Part shown: positions 10,881 to 59,337 of the stretch, one piece after another
How the letters are laid out: every line of letters begins with the position of its first letter
How positions within the stretch are numbered: the stretch's first letter is position 1
From: Pseudomonadota bacterium
GTDB lineage: Bacteria > Pseudomonadota > Alphaproteobacteria > Acetobacterales > Acetobacteraceae
Direction of reading: 5' to 3'
DNA length: 64,000 nucleotides
Assembly: GCA_021801255.1 (NCBI GenBank)
Contig: JAJYYH010000036.1
Coordinates: forward strand, 62,001 to 126,000
The notes under the pieces: generated by a model
What the model was told of the DNA's origin: nothing
Databases searched by the model: none
What the model saw: the letters and a program-made list of their open reading frames with translations, nothing else
Translations under genes and position numbers: made by a program

Positions 10881-11025
10881 GATCGTGGGTCGTCCTCATG
10901 GGGAGCACTGGCACAGCGCCTCAGCCGAAATGCGCCGGATGGACGCGACAGCGGCTCATTGGCATAAACGCCGCCATCGGAGAAGGTTTTTTCGGCGCAC
11001 GGCAAGAAAGCAACTGGGGACCAGC

Positions 11026-11913
11026 GTGGCGAGCGTTTCAATCGAACGGCGGGCCCAAGTGATCGTGCTGGGCAACGAGAAGGGCGGCTCGGGCAAATCA
11101 ACCGCGGCGATGCACCTCATTGTCGGGCTGCTGCGCGATGGCTATCGCATTGGCGCGCTCGATCTCGACGCCCGCCAGGCAACCCTCGCCGGCTATCTCG
11201 AGGCGCGGCGTGATTTCATCCGGCGGCGCGGCATCGCGCTGCCGATGCCCGACTTTGCCGCGGTTCCCAGGAGTTCGCAGGACAGCCGCGCCGCGGCCGA
11301 GGCCGAAGAAGCGGCGCGCTTCGAGGCGGCCTTCGCGGAGGTGGCGCGCGACGCCGATCTCGTCGTCATCGACTGCCCCGGCGCCGATACCTATCTGAGC
11401 CGCCTCGGCCATGGCCGCGCCGATACCTTGATCACCCCGATCAATGACAGTTTCGTCGATTTCGCGATGCTCGCCAAGGTCGATCCCGAGCGCCACGAGG
11501 TGGTGCACCCGAGCATCTATAGCGAAATGGTCTGGGAGGCGCGCAAGCGGCGGATGGCGCGCGACCGCGGCCGCATCGACTGGCTGGTGATGCGCAACCG
11601 GCTCGGCGCGGGCGAGGCGCGCAACAAGCGCGATGTCGGGGCGACGCTCGACGAACTGGCCAAGCGCATCGGCTTTCGCACCGTCAAGGGATTCGGCGAA
11701 CGGGTGATTTTCCGCGAGCTTTATCTCCAGGGCCTTACCTTGATGGACGTGCGCGAGGCCGGGCTCGGCATCCAGCTCGGTATGAGCCACATCGCCGCGC
11801 GGGCCGAGGTGCGCACGCTGATCGGCGCCATCCGCAAACCCCCCGCCGCGCGCGCCCTCACCCCCCTCGCCGAAGACGCCGAAACTTCCCGCGCGGCTGG
11901 CGTCGAGCCGTGA
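11026..11913 (+). CDS. mipZ: Division plane positioning ATPase MipZ (ParA/MinD superfamily)
   Basis: Deviant Walker A GNEKGGSGKST; ALDLDARQ; VVIDCPGADTYLSRLGHGRADTLITPINDSFVDFAMLAKVDPE. GTG start at 11026 preferred over the longer ORF start. Confidence 0.85.
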   Translation: MASVSIERRAQVIVLGNEKGGSGKSTAAMHLIVGLLRDGYRIGALDLDARQATLAGYLEARRDFIRRRGIALPMPDFAAVPRSSQDSRAAAEAEEAARFEAAFAEVARDADLVVIDCPGADTYLSRLGHGRADTLITPINDSFVDFAMLAKVDPERHEVVHPSIYSEMVWEARKRRMARDRGRIDWLVMRNRLGAGEARNKRDVGATLDELAKRIGFRTVKGFGERVIFRELYLQGLTLMDVREAGLGIQLGMSHIAARAEVRTLIGAIRKPPAARALTPLAEDAETSRAAGVEP

Positions 11914-12021: not shown

Positions 12022-12049
12022 TTGATATAAATCAACCATACGTTAAGAT
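12022..12049 (+). promoter_or_regulatory. Putative sigma70-type promoter for the sRNA candidate (TTGATA-N16-TAAGAT)
   Basis: -35 TTGATA at 12022-12027 and -10 TAAGAT at 12044-12049, in an AT-rich island. Confidence 0.45.
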
Positions 12050-12054
12050 TTGCT

Positions 12055-12178
12055 TGGCATACTTCTCCTCGGAGCCAGACGAGACGCGGCTTCACGTTTC
12101 CTCCCACAAGCCGCAACGTGCGGTTCCCGCACCGGCGGCAAACTCAAACGGCGCCCCCCATCAGGGACGCCGTTTTTT
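12055..12178 (+). ncRNA. Candidate trans-acting sRNA with anti-Shine-Dalgarno hairpin loop
   Basis: Hairpin GCGGCTT(12086-12092)/AAGCCGC(12108-12114) with loop CACGTTTCCTCCCAC; hairpin GTGCGG-TTC-CCGCAC (12118-12132); intrinsic terminator; no convincing ORF. Confidence 0.55.
12146..12178 (+). terminator. Intrinsic terminator AAACGGCG…CGCCGTTTTTT
   Basis: 8-bp stem 12146-12153/12168-12175 followed by a T tract. Confidence 0.75.
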
Positions 12179-12210
12179 CGTTTCCCCCGCCTGGCCGGTC
12201 CAATGCGTTG

Positions 12211-58955: not shown

Positions 58956-58960
58956 AAGCG

Positions 58961-59337
<377 letters not shown>

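Follow-up and report, generated by a model that had tools for sequence, protein, structure and literature searches.

The intergenic unit at positions 12022-12178 of the 64,000-nucleotide (nt) Acetobacteraceae stretch analysed here (the window) very probably encodes a regulatory RNA of ~110 nt that exposes a CCUCCC motif, is conserved over many Acetobacteraceae genera and matches no Rfam family. Its best explanation, which we regard as probable from the sequence evidence, is a trans-acting, Hfq-assisted anti-Shine-Dalgarno (anti-SD) small RNA (sRNA) of ~110 nt. The promoter, sRNA and terminator form a predicted autonomous unit, whose three hairpins and unpaired UUUCCUCCC linker are kept by descent and covariation in many Acetobacteraceae genera. 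The unit is flanked by the MipZ gene (10885-11913; PF09140, E 1.4e-105) and by the gene of a branched-chain-type periplasmic-binding protein (PF13458; open reading frame (ORF) taken from 12574), and thus sits between mipZ and an ATP-binding cassette (ABC) operon. Its DNA contains TTGATA-N16-TAAGAT and, at 12097-12105, TTTCCTCCC; it also has two hairpins, GTGCGG-TTC-CCGCAC and a G+C-rich one with six T behind it. A first-pass annotation of the same sequence had placed CCUCCC at 12100-12105, and CCTCCC is found at exactly these positions inside TTTCCTCCC. The predicted elements, with the basis of each in brackets, are the following.

12032-12046, + strand: promoter box TCAA-N7-TTAA (TCAA-CCATACG-TTAA), CtrA-consensus-like and covering -35 (alignment A5)
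12058-12063, + strand: -10-like hexamer CATACT (conserved CAnAnT columns in A5)
12070-12178, + strand: predicted sRNA of ~110 nt (paralogue, homologues, covariation)
12071-12093, + strand: hairpin 1, GGAGCC (12071-12076) pairing with GGCUUC (12088-12093) (covariation)
12095-12108, + strand: single-stranded linker CGUUUCCUCCCACA holding the anti-SD seed UUUCCUCCC (12097-12105) (alignments A4/A5)
12110-12139, + strand: middle hairpin with outer stem GCCGC/GCGGC, inner stem GUGCGG/CCGCAC and loop UUC (minimum-free-energy (MFE) fold, covariation)
12146-12178, + strand: intrinsic terminator with stem AAACGGCG/CGCCGUUU and inner CCC/GGG, followed by a U run (fold, covariation)

The existence of the predicted RNA is supported by its relatives. 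A DNA search of 60 genomes identified a second copy in the window genome (G000:C36:82919-83059, equivalent to L163:8916-9056; 85% identity). Four of the five genus-mates have a single copy, and CGCGGCUUCACGUUUCCUCCCA is kept in all of these sequences. A covariance model of six genus-level sequences (R1) reached other genera. With the model built from 22 sequences (R2), 155 of 348 Acetobacteraceae genomes give a match at E<=0.01, usually a single one, with ~70 matches above 40 bits that are spread over many genera of the family. Many of the weaker matches within Acetobacteraceae are canonical loci of the alphaR8 sRNAs (MmgR of S. meliloti, SisA-D of C. crescentus; RF00519 'suhB'), while in ~335 other alphaproteobacterial genomes R2 matches reach only 37 bits and are mostly shorter than the full model. 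An exact-pattern scan also places the family in Acetobacteraceae (Acidicaldus organivorans DX-1, acid-mine-drainage metagenome bins); five of its records (L070, L073, L075, L077, L079) have no model match and are expected chance matches. The first-pass proposal of an autonomous trans-acting sRNA candidate exposing an anti-SD motif is well supported by a paralogue, ~60 good homologues across Acetobacteraceae, covariation, a conserved promoter-like box and terminator, and varying downstream genes. No anti-SD sRNA of Acetobacteraceae was found described in the open-access literature searched.

The predicted RNA folds better than its dinucleotide shuffles, none of 200 being as stable (12056-12182, z = -3.3; 12078-12181, z = -4.2). 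Over the 22 sequences, 89.3% of cells are paired for the whole structure, against at most 50% in slid controls, and 15 of 21 pairs are changed on both sides compared to 6.7 +/- 1.5 in shuffles (0/500 as high). Covariation in relatives, which the first-pass annotation had named as a check on its candidate, is thus present. Changes on both sides affect five of seven pairs of hairpin 1 (94% of cells paired), six of seven outer pairs of the middle hairpin and four of seven counted pairs of the terminator (95% of cells paired). This 22-sequence structure replaced an earlier RNAalifold structure from the six genus-level sequences. Since it was derived from the same 22 sequences, the hairpins were checked on 43 further homologues. 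Their hairpin 1 region folds mostly as hairpin 1 (mean z -2.7, 35/43 below -1.5), with 26 different arm pairs, and the mean z of their middle hairpin is -1.7. The linker CGUUUCCUCCCACA is the most conserved part of the RNA (alignments A4/A5) and its seed UUUCCUCCC is complementary to the Shine-Dalgarno (SD) sequences GGGAGGAA.

The architecture differs in part from the one initially proposed. The strong intrinsic terminator is found at 12146-12178 in the MFE fold and covaries; a simple terminator scan reported none, probably due to the internal stem mismatch. The perfect 6-bp hairpin with a 3-nt loop likewise exists in the MFE fold (12118-12132) but is only the inner part of the longer hairpin 12110-12139. 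The anti-SD motif had been assigned to the loop of a 7-bp hairpin (GCGGCUU...AAGCCGC), and instead lies in a single-stranded linker behind the conserved hairpin 1. The 7-bp hairpin lies 4 kcal/mol above the MFE and 2.6 kcal/mol above the fold in which hairpin 1 is forced; it is invariant within the genus, and outside it only 0-6 of its seven pairs are kept. GCCGC is common to this hairpin and the middle hairpin, so the two are mutually exclusive.

Alignment A5, which comprises 65 homologues with ~100 nt of upstream DNA, defines the promoter region. The upstream DNA is diverged except for one conserved block, TTAACC-nTTn-GTTAAC, with information peaks at both half-sites; it is followed ~12 nt later by CAnAnT, whose second position is A in 60 of 64 rows, and then by hairpin 1. 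TTAA-N7-TTAA with 0-2 mismatches occurs within ~100 nt upstream in 53 of the 65 homologues, for a mononucleotide-shuffle expectation of ~24%, and in 45 of these 53 homologues the box precedes the reference column beside hairpin 1 by 22-26 nt. The window box TCAA-N7-TTAA has one mismatch to this motif, which is the CtrA consensus and is usually positioned at -35 in CtrA-activated promoters (PMC11264516). The TTGATA-N16-TAAGAT promoter of the first-pass annotation exists as a string but not as a conserved promoter: its TAAGAT part overlaps the right TTAA half-site of the conserved box, and the conserved -10-like element is CATACT. Spacing to CATACT predicts a transcription start at ~12069-12071. 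The earlier estimate of ~120 nt for the RNA is shortened to a predicted ~110 nt, its 5' end having been misplaced relative to a start near 12070.

The genomic context varies around this constant unit. Thirty-nine genomes have a relative of the CoA-transferase III query (PF02515; E<=1e-110), and in 36 of them that gene adjoins the RNA gene divergently (RNA and gene coordinates compared by eye; e.g. L143:223-1404, - strand). Among the other three, G157 is consistent with this arrangement but broken by contig ends, while in G105 and G092 the genes are not adjacent. The intergenic box common to the sRNA and the CoA-transferase III gene may control both. No such relative was found in the window's genus at E<=1e-110. 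The paralogue is flanked by an arginyl-tRNA-protein transferase (ATE) gene and by an opposite-strand ORF that is pirin-like by reading only. At a distance of 2.1 kb from the paralogue there is a canonical alphaR8 gene on the minus strand (G000:C36:80783-80855), so that sRNAs with related seeds are near neighbours there. The context changes while box, hairpins and terminator stay, which favours an autonomous gene. A cis-acting leader of the downstream gene, as a 5' untranslated region (5' UTR) element or attenuator, is highly improbable. The RNA and the ABC-transporter gene downstream of it do share a strand, separated by a terminator, yet that terminator ends ~395 nt before the predicted periplasmic-binding-protein ORF start, the gene downstream of the paralogue is unrelated and on the opposite strand, and the conserved neighbour in relatives is upstream and divergent. 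The presence of different downstream genes at different places argues against a 5' UTR.

The most likely mechanism for the autonomous sRNA would be Hfq-assisted translational repression, the linker pairing with the GGGAGGAA ribosome-binding sites of mRNAs for transport proteins and catabolic enzymes and so blocking their translation. Occlusion of the ribosome-binding site is proposed by analogy, because the alphaR8 sRNA SisA was shown by experiment to act in this way with the same seed. SisA represses its targets through a 10-mer that pairs upstream of the start codon with the assistance of Hfq, and the sponge CrfA masks this 10-mer (PMC12559287). Hfq is present in the window genome (TIGR02383, 112 bits). 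Perfect GGGAGGAA-N1-9-ATG sites number 34 in that genome, versus 2 for the reversed pattern. Eighteen of 20 scanned N-termini of the genes behind such sites have Pfam matches, mostly to SDRs, solute-binding proteins, MFS, MR_MLE, EthD, AMP-binding and similar. Transcription would depend on a regulator binding TTAA-N7-TTAA at -35, presumably CtrA in most relatives.

A role mainly in sequestering other anti-SD sRNAs or a protein, as sponge or decoy and not as mRNA repressor, is very unlikely. RNAs of this type exist in the network, where CrfA sequesters SisA-D (PMC12559287). CrfA, however, carries a G/A-rich complement, unlike the candidate, whose seed has the same sense as that of alphaR8 and is not its complement, so that no seed pairing with alphaR8 is possible.

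Several observations weigh against the proposed structure and function. The MFE fold of the window copy alone pairs CGUUUC with GAGACG, the fold with hairpin 1 being 1.4 kcal/mol less stable; this pairing is present in both copies of the window genome and absent from the other genus-mates. The same MFE fold pairs part of the seed, with an unpaired probability of 0.14-0.37 over UUUCCUCC. GGGAGGAA-ATG doubles as a strong SD, which leaves the target list without a proper background. For this reason, and since the control with another SD is too small and partly out of frame, several of its frames containing stops, no target enrichment is claimed. Finally, there is no CtrA orthologue in the window genome (best 34% identity), where the best NCBIfam models in the CtrA search are of KdpE, CopR and OmpR types.

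CtrA control of the sRNA family is accordingly put forward as a hypothesis, built on the box. CtrA searches detect orthologues of 55-63% identity in most RNA-carrying genomes, and the two tested exceed the NCBIfam CtrA cut-off (NF045991). Among the genus-mates, an orthologue with 51% identity was found in G005 and a partial one in G001; the CtrA pathway was possibly lost within the window's genus. As CtrA is not detectable in the window species, it is not the present mechanism there unless another regulator took over the box. Note that ctrA lies ~1.5 kb from the sRNA gene in G080 (G080:C79:8232-10511), a proximity that none of the other genomes compared shows. A broader scenario, which we consider less likely than not, is that of an ancestral Acetobacteraceae sRNA whose CtrA-controlled promoter, shared with the divergent CoA-transferase III gene, brings cell-cycle control to an alphaR8-type anti-SD regulon. 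In the window's genus, several species would lack CtrA or have it only in part, and the RNA would have been duplicated and moved, with the box kept.

Rfam comparison had been suggested by the first-pass annotation, and no family reaches its threshold at the locus; the closest working analogue is alphaR8 (MmgR/SisA). At gathering thresholds nothing is detected in the window apart from a bacterial class A RNase P RNA elsewhere (58957-59337, - strand, 285 bits). Matches at E<=5 to Xoo2, BTH_s19, PK-repBA, IsrM and CcsR1 are all far below gathering scores and were discarded. RF00519 has no match in the window at its gathering threshold (41 bits), nor at E<=5 in 801 nt. A separate observation concerns genus-mate G001, with nine RF00519 matches of which two score identically on one small contig (G001:C3:2986-3057, 21022-21093); a plasmid or a recent duplication may account for this.

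In rhizobia, Brucella-like bacteria and Caulobacter, sRNAs of the anti-SD kind are major regulators of metabolism. The present analysis provides a covariation-supported candidate sRNA family for Acetobacteraceae and a covariance model detecting its members in dozens of genera. The conserved promoter box suggests a testable link to CtrA, and the linkage to CoA-transferase III is strict. The family also illustrates what degree of divergence the alphaR8 theme may have undergone with its seed kept.

Among the anti-SD sRNAs compared, AbcR1/AbcR2 (alphaR15) resemble the candidate in having anti-SD seeds, a length of ~110-120 nt, paired siblings and targets in transport and metabolism. NfeR1 (alphaR14) shares three hairpins and an anti-SD seed, and CCUCCUCCC recurs in the unpaired part of all three of its hairpins (PMC10746234). 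The candidate differs from both in carrying a single seed, located in the linker (one CCUCCC and no CCUCCUCCC), and in matching neither Rfam family; identity with AbcR or NfeR1 is ruled out by the number and place of anti-SD motifs. CcsR1 (RF02791) has a CCUCC-type motif and gives subthreshold Rfam matches (12.5 bits for the window, 32.6 bits for the homologue L056; gathering score 65.3), while the window copy has no CCUCCUCCC repeat.

Similarity to alphaR8 is more extensive. Both have the order hairpin, single-stranded UUUCCUCCC seed and terminator, the hairpin upstream of the candidate's seed being covarying, and both occur in several copies per genome in a host with Hfq. Comparison with the alphaR8 10-mer UUUCCUCCCU gives a mixed picture: nine of ten bases agree in the window (UUUCCUCCCA), and the segment is unpaired in the conserved structure but partly paired in the window MFE. 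A 12-nt sequence, ACGUUUCCUCCC, is common to the candidate and a canonical alphaR8 of the window genome (L028). This shared sequence, the common order of elements, the weak recognition of canonical alphaR8 loci by R2 (e.g. G029:C12:569038, G022:C339:30749) and a score of 31 bits for L056 with RF00519 make it a serious possibility, somewhat short of even, that the RNA is a diverged true member of alphaR8 with a hairpin inserted between 10-mer and terminator. On the other side, RF00519 misses the window and, at E<=1, 19 of 20 homologue loci (all but L056), yet it finds alphaR8 copies of the same genome at 27-55 bits (best two 54.9 and 44.1). The candidate has an additional covarying middle hairpin between seed and terminator. 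The last base of its 10-mer is A instead of U, and the seed has diverged to GGACUCCCUCCC in many homologues. Its promoter carries a CtrA-like box and its linked gene is that of CoA-transferase III. In most species, one alphaR8 copy adjoins an N-formylglutamate amidohydrolase gene (PMC12559287); the genes identified next to the window copy, the paralogue and the RNA of 36 of 39 relatives are different ones, which is not decisive, since additional alphaR8 copies occur in other places as well. Among the genomes searched the candidate is seen only in Acetobacteraceae. By analogy, then, it would work most like alphaR8, yet RF00519 does not recognise it as a member, and it is best described as a variant of the alphaproteobacterial anti-SD sRNAs.
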